From Jacaranda mimosifolia (lineage: Eukaryota; Streptophyta; Magnoliopsida; Lamiales; Bignoniaceae), in assembly GCA_018894105.1 (NCBI GenBank), contig CM032118.1, forward strand, positions 26,702,690 through 26,766,689: a stretch of 64,000 nt of DNA, in the 5' to 3' direction. The notes below the pieces were generated by a model. The model saw nothing but the letters and a program-made list of their open reading frames with translations. It had not been told where the DNA came from and did no database searches. The position numbers and the translations under genes were made by a program. Of this stretch, positions 11,353-57,165 are shown piece after piece. Each line of letters starts with the position of its first letter. Position 1 is the first letter of the stretch.

Positions 11353-11540
11353 TTTTGTTTGGAGATTTCGAAAATCTACAAGAGGCAAAAAAAGAGTATA
11401 AGCATGTGATTGATTTGATATTTAAAACATGTTTATGGTCTTTCAAGCATGTTTTCCCCCCACTATTTTATCGTATCCTTCACCCTCAAGAAGAATTCGG
11501 AAAATCATATTTCCTAGCAAGAGTCAAGACCTTCGCAAGT

Positions 11541-11850
11541 GGGACCCCATGACCGGATGTATATCTACGAGCAATATAAAGGTAAACAACTTTTCCTAAT
11601 TGCATCTCATGCAACTTTTGATATATTCTGCCTCACCATTTCATGTAGATCCCCTGATGGACGACCTCTACATTACTCGGTGTTAAGTAAAACCTACTAA
11701 TCAATCTTCGATTTGAGACGGGCACCACAACATCCCCCATGACTGAGTGTATAATGTGTAGGCGTTCTCAAATAAAATGTGCATCTCATGTAGAGTGTAT
11801 GGTCACAACTTTCACCTAAGTATGACCCCTATGACCAGATGTATATCATA
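11541..11850 (-). repeat. Four leader iterons of element F (divergent core)
   Basis: Motifs lie at about 11541-11568, 11645-11670, 11729-11756 and 11821-11850. On the minus strand their cores read like ATACATCTGGTCATAGGGG. Positions, spacing and flanks match the iterons of G, A, B and C, but the core sequence is specific to this element. Confidence 0.65.
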
Positions 11851-12707
11851 CAAAGGTAGTAGCATCATCATGCCATATACTATTGGTAGAAGGCTTGGAT
11901 TAATTAAAACTCTTTTAATTTGTATCCATTTTGACTTAATATTAGTAATACACTTAGACATTCTAAGTGGAGGGTTTTTGCTTGCAAAGATCTCATCATT
12001 TTATCTTCTTATTTAGGTTTTCTATATCCTAAACATGCATCTCATACATCAATAGGATACGGAAAGCATAAATAAATAAATGCGCCTAGCATGCTCCTAG
12101 GGTGGGATGACCATGAGCCTAACCAAGTGGTGCACTTAGAGCCATAGGTGCACCACCTAGTTGATTTTAGATGGGTTGATTAAATCTAGCTATTACATGA
12201 TCATATCCCATACATTCATGGGGCTTCAAAAATCTCCATGCCTCCATTCGCCTCCATTGCTCCATGTAACTTTTACATGAATAGGAAATCCTCACTCCTA
12301 GTGATTCTACTCTCATAACAATTACAAGGTAGAAATTAAGAGGCATGCAAGCCTCAATTTAATACAACCCATTTCAAAAATTTGAAACAATATAAATCAA
12401 TATTAAAGGCTCATGATCATCCCCATTCATTCATCATCTGTTCAACAATTAAATGAACAATAAACAAATATAGAATTAACAATTAATTCCATCAATTAAA
12501 TGCTTATCTCATAAACAAATAATTGAACAAGCATAATATTTATGCCATTATTGGAAGATGAACTTTAACCAATTTTCAAAGGCATTCAAAAATGTCAAAC
12601 ATAATTTTGAGAACTTGCACAACGTTTGTGCATCTATCATGTGTGGTGCAAACACATTTTAAGCACAAAAGGAATTGGAAAAATTACTCAAAATTCACCA
12701 AAACCAA

Positions 12708-43202: not shown

Positions 43203-44335
43203 TCTTAAGATTTCTCAAATCTTTAAAGGTAAAAAGGAGAATATAAGGATGTGATTGAATATAGATATTGAAAACATTTTCATGGAGTTTCAAGCATGTT
43301 TTTCTCCCACTATTTTATCAAATTCCTAACCCCTTAAAGGAATTCAGGAAATCTCATTTCGTAGTGAGAATCAAGGCCCAAAGGACTTGTAGTGGGCCCA
43401 TGACTCATGAGATATCTACAAACAATCCTAAGGTAAGCAACTATTATTAATTGTATCTCTATGCAACCCTTGATATATTTTGCCACACTTTTCATGTAGA
43501 CCTATGACTCGTGCGACATCTACACTACTAGGTATTTAAGTCGGACCTACCAATTAATCTTTCATTCGAAACAACACTATATCATTCCACAACTCGTGAG
43601 ACAATGCATAGGAAGTGTCAAATAAATGTTACATCGTATGCTAAGTATGTGAGCATAGCTTTCCTCTATAAACATACACTAATCAACCATTTAAGCAAGG
43701 CTGGTTGGCTGGTTGGGTAGTTCCTCTATAAACATCTACTAACTAACAACGAGCATGCACAAGGCTTGCCCATGGCCGTGCCTAGCTACTGGCCACCCTG
43801 CAACCTTGCCACAACATACACTAATCAACCATTTAAGCACCATTTTGTGTTTTTGCCGCTCCAAACCATATGGACACCTCTATAACATCATTTCATACAA
43901 AATTTGACAAATTTCCAAATTATAAACACCTTTAAAAATTGGAAATTAAAATGTTCAAATATGCTTCAAAAATCAAGTGAAAGTAAGAATCAACATTTTC
44001 CAAAAATCTTAAGTTAACTCCAATCAAATTGGATCCAAAAATGACCAAAATACCTTAAGGACTAATTAAACATGCTATATCAACATATAATATAAATCAA
44101 TACTAAATCAACATTTACATAATCATCCATGAATCAAAATCATGCCAACATATGAATCAATACTTAAAATAAATATTAGCATATCTCAATTCATCAACAA
44201 TGGAGCCACATACAAAATTAACCAAACACGCAAATTCATCATTTAAATCAAGTATTTGGTGATTTAGGTCAATTCATCACATGAATCAATCCGATAAAAT
44301 CCAAATTAAAGCATGAATGAGGCTCTAACACTACT
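43203..44335 (-). other. Leader and PBS of element A
   Basis: This leader is about 1.1 kb, shorter than in F through an internal loss after about 43680. Three iterons remain near 43393-43415, 43497-43522 and 43585-43609, with cores like CTCACGAGTTGTGG; the fourth is missing. The PBS is 44321-44333 (minus strand TAGTGTTAGAGCC, mutated). A GC-rich patch lies at about 43730-43810. No coding region is seen. Confidence 0.7.
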
Positions 44336-49899: not shown

Positions 49900-50690
49900 T
49901 TTTCTAATGGCATTTCTCGCCACAATAGAAACAAGCATCATTGGCTTTGGCTTCTTTCTTTTTCTTGATTCCCCCCAAACCTTTCAAAGGTTTCTTTTCC
50001 TTAGAGAAAGAACTCTTCTTCCTTTTACATCCCTTCTTAGCACCCCTAAGCCCCTTAGACTTGGAGAAGGAAGTAAGCAAAAGAAGCTTATCTTTCTTCA
50101 TTATTGCCTCGGTGATCACCAACTTATTGACCAACTCATTAATTGTTACTCCTTGCTTCGTCATGTTGAAGTTCATAGCTAATTGATCAAAAGAGCTAGC
50201 CAATGATTGAAGGATCAAATCTACATAGAGCTCATTGTCCATGACTACATCTAATTGCCCAAGCTTCTCAATGAGATCGATCATCTTTAGGCCATGGTCA
50301 TAGACACTCAAACCCTCATTCATTCTAGTTCTAAAGAGCTCATTAGACAATGAAAACCTTTCATGTCTAGTTTGCACACCATACAACTCTGGTAAGTGCA
50401 AATGGATCTTGTGAGCGGTTTTCATGTGCTCGTGAGACTTTTGGAGCTCATTAGACATAGAATCCATCTTGAGACATCTCGTTTGTAGATTGTCATTCAC
50501 AAACTTCGTGAACACTTCACATGCCTCATCGATGGCATTATCGTTAATGGTGTCTGACAAACTTTGAGTAAGCACATAGGTCCTTTTTTTGGAATCAAGT
50601 ATAATCTTGAGGTTTCTAAGCCAATCACGAAAGCTAGGCCCAATGAGTTCATTAGTTTCCAAAAAAGCATTGAGTGGATTCTTAGCTATT
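49900..50690 (-). pseudogene. gag of element B (longest open gag, start codon lost)
   Basis: The open frame 50662-49904 encodes 252 residues from METNELIGPSF. Alignment with F puts the true start about 12 codons upstream near 50690, where ATG has become ATA. UBN2-type gag motifs are DWLRNLKIILDSK, HMKTAHKIHLHLPELYG and YDHGLKMIDLIEKLGQLD, the last showing the glutamine that is a stop in F. The C-terminus is lysine/serine-rich and ends in a zinc knuckle, CFYCGEKCH, where the expected GH is changed and the frame stops at once. This is the best-preserved gag core of the window. Confidence 0.85.
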
Positions 50691-53600
50691 AGATTTGAGA
50701 TTTCAAAAATCTATAAAGGCGAAAAAAAAAAGTATAAGCGTGTGACTGAATATTGATATTGAAAACATGTTTATAGACTTTCAAGCATGCTTTTCTCCCA
50801 CTATTTTATCAAAATCCTTACCCTCTAGAAGAATTCGAGAAATCTCATTTCCTAGTGAGAATCAGGGCCTTAAGGACTTGCAAGTGGACCCCCGTGTTGA
50901 GTGCAATCCACAAATAATCGAAAGGTAAGCAACTTTTGCTAATTGCATCTCTATGCAACCCTTGATATATTTTGCCTCACTTTTCATATAGATCCACGTG
51001 TCATGAGCCCTCTACATTACTAGGTGTTAAGTCAGACCTAACATTCAAATTTTGATTCTAGACGGCTCTATAACATCCCAAGTGTCGTGTACCAATGCAT
51101 GGGAATCATCAAATCAAAGGTCCACCATATACTAAGTATATGATCATAGCTTTCTACCTAAGTGTGGCCCACGTGTCGTGTGCCATCACACAAAGGTAGT
51201 AGCATCATCATGTCATATATTACTGGTAGAATGAATGGATTAATTAGAACTCCTTATCCATTTTGACTTAATATTTCAAAAACACTTAGACTCTTCTAAA
51301 TGGAGGGATTTTCTTTCTTGCAAAGATCTCATCAAATTTATCTTCTTATTTAGGTCTTCTACATCCTAACCATACTTCTCATACATTAGTAAGATATGGA
51401 AAGCATAAATAAGTAAATAAGCCTAGCATATTCCTAGGGTGGGATGACCATGAGCCTTAACCAAGCAGTACACTTAGATCCATAGGTGCACAATTTATTT
51501 TAAGTGGGTTGATTAAATCTATACATTCATGGGTCTTCTCATCTCCTTGAAACAATTATATGAGGAAAAAATTCTCACTCTTAGTGATTCTACTCTCATA
51601 AGTTTAATAAGATAGAAATTAAGACGCAGTCAAACCCCAATTTAATACAACCCTTTTCAACAACTTGAAATAAATAAAATCAATATTAAAGGCTCATGAT
51701 CATCCCTATTCATTCATCATCCATTCAATGATTAAATGAAGAGTAAATCAAGAATTGACATTCAATTCCATAATTAAATGCTTATGTCATAAACAATTAA
51801 TTATCTAGCAAAGAGAAGCAAAACAATTATGCATCTCATTTTTGCACCAATTTGAGGATTAACTTAAACAAGATTTTAAAAGCAATCAAAAATGTCAAAC
51901 ATAATTTTAAGAACTTGCACAACACTTGTGCATCTATGTAGCATGATTTAGATTAATTTTGGTAAAGAAAAATAAACACAAAAATGGCTCAAAACTTATC
52001 CACACCCTAACTGGGCGCCGCTGCCCTAGCTTGGGTGCACGGTTGCACAGTCAACGCCCTACTATGCACGGTAGCTCCTCTGTTTTAGAGTTAGGATCGA
52101 GTCAAGCCAATTTGGCTCAACTTTTGTGCATCAAAAAATTAAGGACCCTTCATTAACACTAAATCATACATTATAGACAATTTTCAAATTTAAAACACCT
52201 TTTAAAAAATGGAAATTCAAGTGGTCAAATATGCTTCAAAAATCAAGTTTGAGTAAGAATCACCATTCTTCAAAAATCTATAATTAACTCTAATCCAATT
52301 AATCCAAAAATGCCAAAACCCCTTAAGGCCAAATTTAACATGCTATATCAACATATAACATCATCTAATGCTAAATCAAAATTTAACATAGGGTGAATTA
52401 TGGCTACCGCCCCTAAGGTTAAGCGTAATTACGAAACGATCCTTGTATTTTTTAAAATTACAAAAAAAGCCCCTGAGTTTTGTCACCATCCAACAATTTA
52501 ACCTACTCGTTACTTGTTATTAGGGTTTTTGAAATTTTTCGTTAAATTTTCCATGTGAAATTCTAAAAATACCCTTCTGATTAATTACCTCATTTTGACC
52601 AATTCTGACCTTATGTTCATGCTGAAAATACCCTCAAGGTCTGTGTTGTTATATTTTTAAGTTATCGAAGGATTAAATAGTAATATTAACATACTCTATG
52701 GGTTTAACTATAAGAAATATAGAAATATTTATATATATATAGCTATATATACAATATAATATTATATATACATAGATACGTAATATAAACATGTATACGC
52801 CTACTATACACATATACATATATGATACAAACATATATATATAATGTATACATATACATACACACACCCCCACCCCCCATCAGCCAGATCTGGTAGTGGC
52901 AGCTGCTGGCAGCGATCGCCTCGCCATGGCCATGCAAGTCGTGAGTAAGGCAGTGGCCGCCTAGTGCTTGTCTACTACCCATGGCAACCGTAGCTTCCAT
53001 GGGCAACAAGTCACCGGCAATGGCTATGCCACGACTAGCGGAAGAAGAAATGAGGGGGCGCTGAGATGGATAGGGGAAATGTAAGGGGAATTTATTTTTT
53101 TTTCAAAAAAAATTATTTTTTAATTAATAAATAATTTAATTAAATATGTATGTTGTTTTTATTTATTATTTCCTAATTAATATTTTTTTAATTTTTTATT
53201 TATTGTGTTTTGAATTAATTAATAAATTTAACTAAGTTTTATTAATTATTTTAGATAGATTTATTATTAGAATAAATATGTTAATTATTTATTATTAGTT
53301 TAGATAGATTTATTATTCAAACACATATTTTAATTATTTTTAAAAAATTTAATTTAGATATGATTATTATTTTAATAAATGATATAATTAAATTTAAAAA
53401 ATTTATCTTTTTTATTTAATAAATAATTTAGTTAAAAATACATATATTTAAATTTTTTATTTATTTATTCTTAATTAACATAATTTTTAATTTTTTATTC
53501 ATTATTTTTGTTAATTAATAAATTTAACTAAATAATTAGATATGCTTATTAGTTTTTATTGTCTAATATGTAACTCAACTAATAAATATTTTATTATTTA

Positions 53601-54118
53601 ATATTATTAGATAAATTTAACTATGTAAATAGACTATTTTAAATATATATACTATTTAAAATAATTCATAATTCTAAAATATCATAACACATGGTGGGGC
53701 ATTTAGGACTTTAACCATCAAAACTAATATTCAACATTTTTTGTTTTCTTAATTATTTTTCCTTCAAGGGTATTTTTCACTTTTCTCATTTTATGTCTAC
53801 CTTACAATTAGGTCTACAATTTAGGGGAGTTATTGTAATTTTTGAAATACGAGAATCGTTTCATAATTACGCCAAACCTCAGGGGTTGTAGCCGTAATTC
53901 ACCCTTTAACATAATCATCCATGAATCAAAAACATACCAACATATGGATTAACTCTTAAAACACATATCAGCATAATTCAATTTAGCATCAAAGAAGCCA
54001 CAAGCAAACACTCGAATCCATGATTTGGATCAAGTATTTGGAGATCTAGATCAATCCATCACATGAATTAATCAAACAAAAATCCAAATTAAAGCATGAA
54101 ATAGACTTTGATACCACT
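50691..54118 (-). other. Leader and PBS of element B
   Basis: Without the inserted MULE the leader is about 1.9 kb. Iterons with a distinct core (minus strand like GGCACACGACACGTGGG) lie near 50885-50908, 50991-51014, 51075-51100 and 51166-51188. A GC-rich patch is at 52010-52090. The PBS is 54104-54116 (minus strand TGGTATCAAAGTC). No coding region is seen. Confidence 0.72.
52391..53904. mobile_element. Mutator-like (MULE) element with a GC-rich core
   Basis: This 1514-base insert has long terminal inverted repeats of about 85 bases (52391-52476 and 53819-53904). Both ends start GGGTGAATTA, continue with CCCCTRAGGTT and share ACGAAACGAT or ATGAAACGAT. It is flanked by a perfect 9-base duplication TTTAACATA (52382-52390 and 53905-53913). 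A 9-base duplication with long TIRs indicates Mutator. No transposase is present. Inside are TA-rich microsatellite runs (52700-52860), a GC-rich segment (52865-53065) and an AT-rich arm. The minus-strand ORF 53009-52743 crosses the GC-rich part. Confidence 0.82.
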
Positions 54119-54690
54119 TGAAGTTAAGTGTAGCACAAGGATCCAATTAATAAAGCACAAAATAGCTAAACCAAACTTGGCTACACTCAATCTAAGGAAG
54201 ACAAGGTTGAACTCTTCAAGCTGTCTCCTCCTGGCATAGCGGCAATGTGGCAACGTTTGCCCTATCAAAACACCTCCGGATTTGTTAAAATTTGGACAGC
54301 ACCTCACTAACACCCTGCAGAATATCTAGCAACGAATTTAGTAGAAAACAAGATTGGCAAGTGCTTGAAAAATGCCGCTAAAGTTTCTGCCCCTACAGTG
54401 GATCTCGAAGAGCAAAGCGATCCAAATGTCTAGCTTCTAATGAAATGATCCACACACCTAATGCAAATCCCAATCAACCTCTAGAAAGTTGGAACTTTAG
54501 AGGAAGAAGAAGTAATGAAGGTTGAATTTAGGAGGGAATGAGAAGAAGAATGTGTAAAACTTTAATACCTGAGTGAATCACACATTTGAAGGGAAAAATA
54601 GAATCTAGCATGAATGTCTTGCATTGTGGCCTCCTATCTCTATTTATGGAAGAGGGAGGATGCGATGCAAGTTGGCCACCTATGTAACTA
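54119..54690 (-). repeat. 5' LTR fragment of element B
   Basis: This is the 3' end of the minus-strand LTR (TGAAGTTAAG at 54119), similar to the B 3' LTR start at 44755. It is cut near 54690, just past a damaged promoter dyad (around 54655-54675). Confidence 0.75.
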
Positions 54691-54829
54691 GGAGCACCTG
54701 GATATAAGACATATATCCATTTCTCGGAATCTAGATAATTTTGAAATTTAGTCAATCGTGGTAGTTTTGGCCCTATTAGTTTATTGGTTTCCAATATAAT
54801 GCTTAGTGGATTTATAGCCACTCTTGAGA
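54690..54829 (-). pseudogene. gag N-terminal fragment of element C
   Basis: It aligns with the first residues of the F and B gag (NPLSIILETNKLIGP). The start codon is GTG where F has ATG (near 54821). The fragment ends after about 45 codons at the B LTR junction. It is not functional. Confidence 0.72.
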
Positions 54830-56836
54830 TTTCTCAAATCTACATGAACGAAGAAGAGAATATAGGCATTTGATTGAATTTGATATTATAAAACATGTTT
54901 ATGGACTTTTAAGCATGTTTTTCTTCCACTATTTTATTTATCAAATTCCTCACCCCCCCAAAGGAATTCAGGAAATCACATTTTCTAGTGAGAATGAAGG
55001 TTTGAAAGGCATCATTTGTGGACCCATGGCTCGTGAGACATCCATAAATAATTCTAAGGTAAACAACTTTTGTTAATTGCATCTCTATGCAACCATTGAT
55101 TAGTTTTGCCTCACTTTTCACGTAGACCCACGACTCATGCGACATCTACATAAGTAGGTGTTAAGTCATACCTTTCAACCAATCTTTAATTATAAAGTCT
55201 ACTATATCATTCCACGACTCATGAGACAATGCCATAGTGAGGTTTAAATTAAAGTGCATCATATGCCGAGAAGTGAGAGTGGCTTTTCTCTAATAAAGTA
55301 TCCCACGACTCGTGAGCCAACACTAAATTAGGGTGGCATCTCATGTCACCTCCCATTGGTAGAAAGCCAGGATTAATTAAAACATTTCTTAATTGTATCC
55401 AATTTGACTTAATATTTTGAAAAACTTAGACTCCTCTAAGTTGTGGGCTTTTCTTGCTTTGAAAGATCTCATCAATATTAACATCTCTTACTTAGGTTCT
55501 CTATATCCTAACCATGCATCTCATACATTAATAGAATAAAGAAAAGCATAAACAAGTAAATGCACCTAGCATGCTTCTAAGGTGGGATGACCATGAGCTT
55601 TAACCAAGTAGTGCACATAGAGAGCCATAGGCGCACTACTTAGTTGATTTTAAGTAGGTTGATTAAATCCTTTCAATTACATAGAAGTATCCCATACATT
55701 CATGGGTCTTCAAGCCTCCTTGATCCTCTTGGCCTTCTTTGTCTCCTTGAAATATTTACAAGAGAAAAGAAATCCTCATCCCTAGAGTTCTGCTCTCATA
55801 ACATTTACAAGATAGATATCAAGAGGCATGCAAGCCACTATTTAATACAACACATTTCAAACAACTTTGAAACAAATAAAACCAATTTAAAAGCTTATGT
55901 TCATCCACATTCATTCATCACCCATTCAACAATTAAATGAACAATAAATAAGAATAGACATTCAATTCAACCAATTAAATGATTATCACATAAACAATTA
56001 ATTAGCTAGCAAAAATAAGCATAACTCTTTACGCATCTCATTTTTGCAACAACTTGAAGTGCATACTTAAATTTGAGCATAAAAGCAAGCAAAAATGTCC
56101 AACATGATATTGAGCACTTACACAACAATTGTGCCTCAAAAGTGTATGGAAAAATCAAATTTAGGAAGGCAAAAATGCACAAAACAACAAATTAGTCATG
56201 CTTAGGCAGCCATGGGCAGGCCTACTGCCCAGTTGACTGCCGAGGCAAGCTGCATAGGCACTACAATGCCCCTGCTATGCAGCCAAGGACTAGCCGGCTG
56301 GCAGGGGCCCTACCACAAGGCGCCTAGGCCACCATTTTACCCCATGTTTGCTCTTTTACCATCCCAAACTTTATGGACACTTCCATAATTCCATTCCATA
56401 CATTTTATGAAAAATATTCAGATTATAAACACCTTTAAAACTTAAAATTAAAGTGTTTAAATTGCTTCAAAAATCAAATCTAAGGAAGAATCACTATTCT
56501 TCAAACAACTTCAAGACATCCAATCAAATTGGGTCCAAAAATTGCCAAAATACTTTTAAGCAATTATCAACATGCTAAACCAATATCTAACATCATCCAA
56601 TGCTAAATCAACATTTAACATCATAAGATTTGAATCGAAATCATGCCAACATATGAAATAACACTTAAACACATATTGATATATTTCAACTCAACACATA
56701 AAGGGCCACATACAAAATCATCCAAACACTCAAATTCATCAATTGAATCAAGTATTTGGAGATTTAGAATCAATCCATCACATGAATCAATTCACTAAAA
56801 TCCTTATTTAGGTATGAAAATGGCTCTGATACCACT
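54830..56836 (-). other. Leader and PBS of element C
   Basis: This is about 2 kb without coding. Four iterons lie at about 55019-55043, 55124-55148, 55208-55233 and 55300-55322, with minus-strand cores like CTCACGAGTCGTGGG. A GC-rich region at 56195-56340 contains several foldbacks, including GGGCAG...CTGCCC (56214-56230) and GCTGCATAG...CTATGCAGC (about 56248-56284). The PBS is intact. Confidence 0.75.
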
Positions 56837-57165
56837 TGAAAGATAGAGATAAATTGGGATCCAAATATTAAAACGAAAATTAGGCAAAAACGAAACCAAT
56901 CATATTATCCCAAAAATCATAGTCATGCTCTAAATAAGGACTTGAAGGCAGAAAATTTACCTTTGCAATTAGAAACAAAGGATTTGAGTAGATCACTCCA
57001 AAGACTCTTCTAGTGGAGGATCTACAAGCTCCAATGGTTGGATCTGAAAACTCCCTTTCTAATGCTCTAAAAATCGACAAAAATGGTAGATCTTCTCACC
57101 ACCAATATAGTGAGTTGTTGCCTAAATTTTGTTGAAATCAAAAACTCCTTGGTCACCCAATGATG

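Follow-up and report, generated by a model that had tools for sequence, protein, structure and literature searches.

Four hairpins sharing a loop in the leader of Ty1/copia elements of Jacaranda mimosifolia: a candidate packaging or dimerisation apparatus

Ty1/copia elements of the window and their leader hairpins

We have analysed a window of 64,000 nucleotides from the 707 Mb, 65-contig genome of Jacaranda mimosifolia which, in self-comparison, is full of related, decayed stretches. The window contains decayed Ty1/copia elements, and the sets designated A, F, C, B and G were examined. Only three closed frames of at least 150 amino acids are present in the window, all being gag or gag-pol pieces. 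The gag open frame of element B, located at 49904..50662 on the minus strand, contains Retrotran_gag_2 (Pfam PF14223, 2e-17), and two F frames near 10-11.4 kb match the same family at 1.7e-06 and 5.8e-07, one of which also contains the Pol beta-barrel domain PF22936 (5.6e-09). Membership in plant Ty1/copia is indicated by this combination of a copia-type gag with a Pol beta-barrel and by a tRNA-Met primer binding site, the word TGGTATCAGAGC, which is present as an exact match at 56823..56834 (-), ∼1.5 kb upstream of the G array, a location which places this array within the transcribed leader. The other six of the seven primer-site matches in the window carry 1-2 mismatches, with ∼4 such matches expected by chance. 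A shorter form of the primer site, TATCAGAGC, is stated for Sireviruses in the available text of PMC2829016.

Upstream of the gag frame of element B, four sites each form a hairpin on the sense strand, in which an outer stem private to the site is followed, past a bulge on the 5' side, by an inner stem capped with a loop of 3-4 nt. The four hairpins are located in the leader, their starts being ∼80-105 nt apart, and the gag frame starts ∼220 nt downstream of hairpin 4. An earlier note on this DNA, in which these sites were described as iteron-like cores within position-specific flanks, located them correctly, as the hairpins of element B span 50884-51191 on the minus strand and parallel sets are present in A, F, C and G. 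Hairpin 1 of element B (51162..51191) has the outer stem GTGTGA/CCACAC and the inner stem and loop CACG-ACA-CGTG; in hairpin 2 (51068..51103), a single base bulges from the outer stem around CAT/ATG; hairpin 3 (50988..51015) has the outer stem GTAGA/TCTAT; and hairpin 4 (50884..50911) has the outer stem GTGGA/TCCAC. The loop is ACA in each, and at site 4 it is still ACA within an inner stem of a different class (CTCA/CGGG).

Loops of the AGT type are observed in three further arrays: in element A on the plus strand (1145-1174, 1234-1270, 1323-1350 and 1426-1453), in element C on the minus strand, in which site 1 is lost (43577-43612, 43496-43523 and 43392-43419), and in element G on the minus strand (55297-55324, 55202-55237, 55122-55149 and 55018-55045), the stem of site 1 in the latter being AGTGT/ATACT. 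The element F array, also on the minus strand (11820-11851, 11725-11762, 11645-11671 and 11539-11568), carries GTCA-type loops at sites 2 and 4, a GTCA-like site 1 which was not callable by script, and at site 3 a deviating core, GTCGTCCATCAGGGG, with the loop AUCA. The AGT core word has 17 matches in the window at up to 3 mismatches compared with 0.83 expected, and all core matches with up to 2 mismatches lie inside the arrays.

Several further observations were made in the vicinity of element B. A stop codon at 49933 (-) breaks the CX2CX4HX4C zinc-knuckle motif which ends the element B gag, a pattern that has no further match in the six frames of the window. The region 52000-54000, upstream of the B array, has a low GC content (27%) and is perhaps a further insertion. 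No Rfam family reached its gathering score over window positions 50600-57000, and two Rfam microRNA matches at 52.77-52.87 kb scored far below it.

Pairing, covariation and strand preference of the stems

Candidate relatives in four DNA searches numbered 4,585, 4,250, 3,611 and 3,358, the best 40 of each being scored. A total of 139 genome copies were compared, of which 104 were called at all four sites and the other 35 at three or fewer, using templates for loops and inner stems that were picked after the sequences had been seen. The alignment of the arrays, A1, contains 134 of the 139 copies (L147, L154, L155, L158 and window element C are omitted).

On the sense strand the outer stems are GTGTGA/TCACAC at site 1, around CAT/ATG at site 2, GTAGA/TCTAC at site 3 and GTGGA/TCCAC at site 4, and pairing is kept with other letters in other lineages, as at site 1 in F (GTATGA/TCATAC) and G (AGTGT/ACACT). 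The flanks are indeed specific to their position, as the earlier note had proposed, but the left and right flank of a site depend on each other, being complementary and forming its stem. Over 25 pairs and 134 arrays, 88.7% of 3,332 outer-stem cells pair, compared with only 27-56% when one side is slid by 1-3 columns. Cells altered on both sides number 149, compared with 67.1 in shuffles, and covariation is 0.215 compared with 0.156; none of 500 shuffles, which ignore the relatedness of the copies, was as high in either measure. Of the five measures, two were not above shuffles: how many pairs showed any double change, and how many further pair types occurred. In G-type arrays the register of site 2 is shifted by one base, so that the given register pairs in just 51% of cells; in its own register, chosen after the data had been seen, 125 of 147 cells pair.

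Conserved RNA stem-loops, the arrangement expected of a packaging signal, are therefore present in the leader upstream of gag, with the stem of site 1 being the only one of the four recovered when RNAalifold was applied unaided to the whole alignment. Folding of full arrays in 45 of the 134 copies gave modest mean pair probabilities for the outer stems (0.15-0.46), and a mean z-score of -2.27 on the sense strand, yet also of -1.76 on the antisense strand. Local sense z-scores of the individual sites ranged from -0.56 to -1.68.

Inner stems could be parsed at 512 of 556 sites, leaving 44 unparsed, and fall into five classes of four pairs: CACG/CGTG, CTCG/CGGG, TCCG/CGGG, CTCG/CGAG and GTCC/GGGG. 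A mean of 3.42 of the four pairs is formed, and all four form at 276 of the 512 parsed sites. Mixing arms across stem classes resulted in worse pairing in most combinations, the exception being the CTCG and TCCG arms, which pair approximately equally with the CGGG arms of either class. Outward of the four pairs, the fifth is mostly a mismatch (304 of 512).

Strand preference is evident in the inner stems, in which the four pairs contain 328 G-U compared with 193 A-C combinations over the 512 sites, the third pair contributing 115 and 9, respectively. The preference is reversed at the second pair (A-C 74, G-U 55) and also at the sixth, where A-C exceeds G-U by 49 to 20, and in the outer stems the wobble excess within lineages is slight (145 G-U compared with 110 A-C). 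Local folds of every second copy were more stable in the sense than in the antisense orientation at all four sites, by 63:5, 48:20, 66:4 and 59:11 copies, a difference to which base composition may contribute. Together, the G-U wobbles and the local folds favour the sense RNA.

An additional conserved stretch lies between sites 3 and 4, where the antisense word AAGGTAAGC, at 50922-50930 (+) in the window, is nearly invariant in alignment A1. We take this word to resemble the consensus of a 5' splice donor.

Loop types within and between elements

Six loop types were distinguished: AGU, ACA, UCA, (G/A)UCA, AAG and AGG. A uniform loop type at all four sites was observed in 80 of the 104 fully called copies (52 AGT, 16 ACA, 6 AAG, 4 TCA and 2 AGG), counts which reflect a query-driven sample of copies and are not genome frequencies. 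In a further 11 fully called copies the loop is AUCA at site 3 and GUCA at the other three sites, and 13 are mixed. The claim that the cores of an element resemble one another and differ from those of other elements is thus upheld, with site 3 of F as an exception in the window. That AGT to ACA is not the product of CpG decay, also claimed, holds as well, since both changes are transversions.

Agreement in loop type was nearly complete among sites 1, 2 and 4, at 114 of 118 copies for sites 1-2, 111 of 116 for sites 1-4 and 112 of 118 for sites 2-4, with shuffle means of 35-39. Site 3 agreed with the other sites at a lower level (85 of 118, 85 of 121 and 87 of 120; shuffle means 30-33). The proposal that all four sites changed together is consequently too strong, as the near concordance of sites 1, 2 and 4 often does not extend to site 3. 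In copies L156, L157, L159 and L160 the loop of site 3 is AGU, whereas those of both site 2 and site 4 are GUCA, with site 1 being GUCA in two and uncallable in two, and L100, L103 and L108 are among the copies mixed for UCA and ACA. These GUCA/AGU and UCA/ACA copies look like intermediates in stepwise loop switches, with site 3 lagging. Three other copies also look like loop switches caught midway: L093 has a private loop, GCA, at sites 1 and 2; L111 has AGG at sites 2 and 3 and AGU at sites 1 and 4; and L110 has AGG at site 2.

It is mainly the loop that is common to the hairpins of an element. Among 196 within-copy pairs of sites with differing inner stems, 170 have the same loop type and 26 differ, UCA, GUCA and AUCA being counted as a single UCA type in this comparison; 99 of the 170 are listed with identical letters and 70 as UCA-type variants. 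That loops mostly match inside differing inner stems renders gene conversion improbable and points to a common reader.

Searches with exact-stem patterns extended these observations to the whole genome, detecting 1,507 site-1 and 619 site-4 hairpins compared with 0 for reversed controls. The intact CACG/CGTG form of site 1 occurs 225 times and the G-type form 52 times, the latter nearly all with AGU loops, and neither reversed pattern was found. Pairing by hand of site-1 and site-4 matches on contig C1, among the first 100 places listed per pattern, gave 13 copies with both sites, a less query-driven set which shares L157 with the sample. Loops are identical in 8 of these, of the same type with transitions in 4, and different (UCA and ACA) in 1. 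A scan of 1.5 kb to each side of 65 loci of the AGT, ACA and GTCA types, using the core of the type with one mismatch on both strands, placed all core matches but one at the array positions. On contig C1, at G000:C1:35530771-35531176, two site-4 hairpins lie 375 bases apart on one strand, and the site 1 located 273 bases beyond this pair differs in loop type (UCA compared with ACA); a partial array duplication is possible.

The relation of loop type to gag was investigated in a tree of 74 of 101 gag pieces, those of at least 500 nt, 27 shorter ones being dropped and AAG-type copies not being included. Loop type is clustered on this tree, requiring 13 changes compared with 35.0 in shuffles, but is not related to gag one-to-one. 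In a shallow clade around B, with short branches and little support, copies of the AGU, ACA and UCA types are intermixed. Eight copies form a well-supported clade in which a single divergent gag body lies behind four loop types: GUCA in L064, AGU in L023, L117, L072 and window element C, UCA in L092 and L100, and ACA in L004. From approximately column 375 of the alignment, the gags of L064, L023, L092, L100 and L004 share 72-87% identity with the C type, represented by two reference copies, compared with 55-72% with the other types, and the spacing from site 4 is normal (154-161 nt) in the three of these five chimeras in which it was measured. A divergent gag behind several loop types indicates that leaders recombine onto gag bodies. 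The correlation between core type and gag subtype, for which the earlier note proposed a test, is present as clustering and is broken by these recombinants, and strict co-evolution with gag is not upheld, as loop type is not locked to the gag body. In a tree built from leader positions that do not belong to the hairpins, 20 changes of loop type are required where 5 would suffice, compared with 65.7 in shuffles, a rough count because only 4 of the 131 inner branches are well supported. The refuting outcome named in the earlier note, in which cores follow the tree of their flanks, is borne out by half: loops cluster on this tree, yet change far more often than is necessary.

A candidate packaging apparatus and its alternatives

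The explanation that we consider most likely, at approximately even chances and from sequence comparison, is that the four RNA hairpins in the Ty1/copia leader constitute a packaging or dimerisation apparatus whose loops are read repeatedly by one partner. The loop common to most or all hairpins of an element would be contacted several times over by this partner, for which Gag, its nucleocapsid end or a co-factor are candidates, and the multiple contacts would recruit the reader to its own genomic RNA. A change in the reader or in a competitor would then lead to replacement of the loops one after another, by selection and not by copying. Packaging or dimerisation is favoured by the position of the hairpins, by their multivalency and by the precedent of retroviruses, in which short loops serve in packaging. 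The leader-gag recombinants imply that the reader lies outside this part of Gag, or that it is tolerant, or that the chimeras are packaged by the proteins of others. A more far-reaching proposal is put forward tentatively: the repeated 3-4 nt loop may be a multivalent RNA identity tag, telling the packaging apparatus which genomes to take, with lineages switching tags by stepwise, selected replacement of all loops and recombination moving tagged leaders to other gag bodies, an arrangement analogous, at the RNA level, to the VANC target system. Homotypic kissing of the loops was set aside, as by inspection AGU, ACA, UCA, AAG and AGG are not self-complementary.

The iteron or operator interpretation advanced in the earlier note survives in part, as the behaviour of the four sites is that of one set with a single reader, but DNA iterons and operators were rejected: the sites lie in a retrotransposon leader beside gag, their flanks pair with compensatory changes, wobbles and local folds favour the sense RNA, and they are not repeats in an origin or promoter associated with a replication or repressor gene, the three closed frames noted above being gag or gag-pol pieces. 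We regard as improbable the related possibility that the sites are double-stranded DNA dyads bound by a transcription factor or a TE-encoded DNA-binding protein, comparable to the palindromes of Sireviruses or the targets of VANC. The AGT core forms a near-perfect palindrome (CACGAGTCGTG), ACA cores include the G-box word CACGTG and Sirevirus motifs are likewise uniform within and different between elements (PMC2829016, available text), all of which would be expected of DNA dyads; however, the outer flanks show compensatory changes, the AAG, GUCA and site-4 ACA cores require a U-G wobble (CTCG/CGGG) and form no DNA dyad, the G array is downstream of the primer binding site, and core matches are confined to array positions in 65 loci with one exception.

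Control of translation, in which the hairpins would steer ribosomes across the long leader to gag by shunting or internal entry with a host factor on the loops, is unlikely but would account for the location of the array immediately ahead of gag, at least 1.5 kb past the primer site in G, and for the greater stability of the sense RNA hairpins; alone, it leaves the repeated, largely concerted switching of loops between related elements unexplained. Very little probability is assigned to the spread of one core over four sites by gene conversion or template switching in the absence of selection for a shared reader, since the shared unit is often just the 3-4 nt loop inside differing inner stems (the 170 of 196 pairs above), although cores of ∼14 nt are alike within elements and some copies are mixed, as copying would predict. 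Equally remote is the possibility that the loops evade recognition by a nuclease or small RNA of the host: at least 20 changes of loop type on the weakly supported leader-flank tree would be consistent with such pressure, but any change at each site would then do, yet most sites of a copy share the new loop.

The packaging or dimerisation reading has a close parallel in retroviral leaders, in which stem-loops of the genomic RNA also present a short loop on more than one hairpin. In MLV, SL-C and SL-D are a pair of hairpins with the same short loop. Retroviral stem-loops with GACG tetraloops function in packaging, and possibly in dimerisation, of the genomic RNA (PMC516450, available text). The hairpins described here differ in that they are four in number and that a single family contains lineages which have switched loop type, and their role in packaging is putative. 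Among plant Ty1/copia elements, Sireviruses contain repeated non-coding motifs which, according to the text available, resemble one another inside an element and vary from one element to the next, the same pattern as that of the present hairpins; each element carries 8-32 of these palindromes, which with a single exception bear a CGG-CCG signature and are located in the LTRs and in the linker before env (PMC2829016). The present motifs, in contrast, are four leader hairpins with private outer stems and include non-palindromic variants. VANDAL elements are DNA transposons. In Arabidopsis, the motif sets of these elements differ between related TEs and evolve with the TE-encoded reader, VANC (PMC5735166, available text). 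VANC targets differ from the hairpins in being DNA motifs within VANDAL elements, spread by tandem-repeat formation, for which the reader is known.

A precedent for the exchange of packaging components is found in BARE2, a plant copia element lacking its own Gag which has retained the signals for both dimerisation and packaging and is taken up into VLPs (PMC3735527, available text). Packaging parasitism of the BARE1/BARE2 kind would fit the leader-gag recombinants observed here; the accessible portion of the BARE account differs in mentioning no repeated-loop hairpin array, and that on Ty1 describes palindromes but nothing like the present array (PMC4974528). No comparable hairpin array was found in the accessible parts of the open-access literature.

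Little seems to be established about how plant LTR retrotransposons recognise the RNA of their own that they package. Outside BARE, little is known of the packaged RNA (PMC3735527, available text), and in the main text available of a 2025 review of plant LTR retrotransposon host factors 'packaging' occurs 8 times and 'psi', 'hairpin' and 'stem-loop' 0 times (PMC12786077). The hairpin array provides a clear signature for tracing in other elements, and the natural loop variants, mixed copies and leader-gag recombinants would make packaging specificity, its co-evolution and parasitism directly testable.
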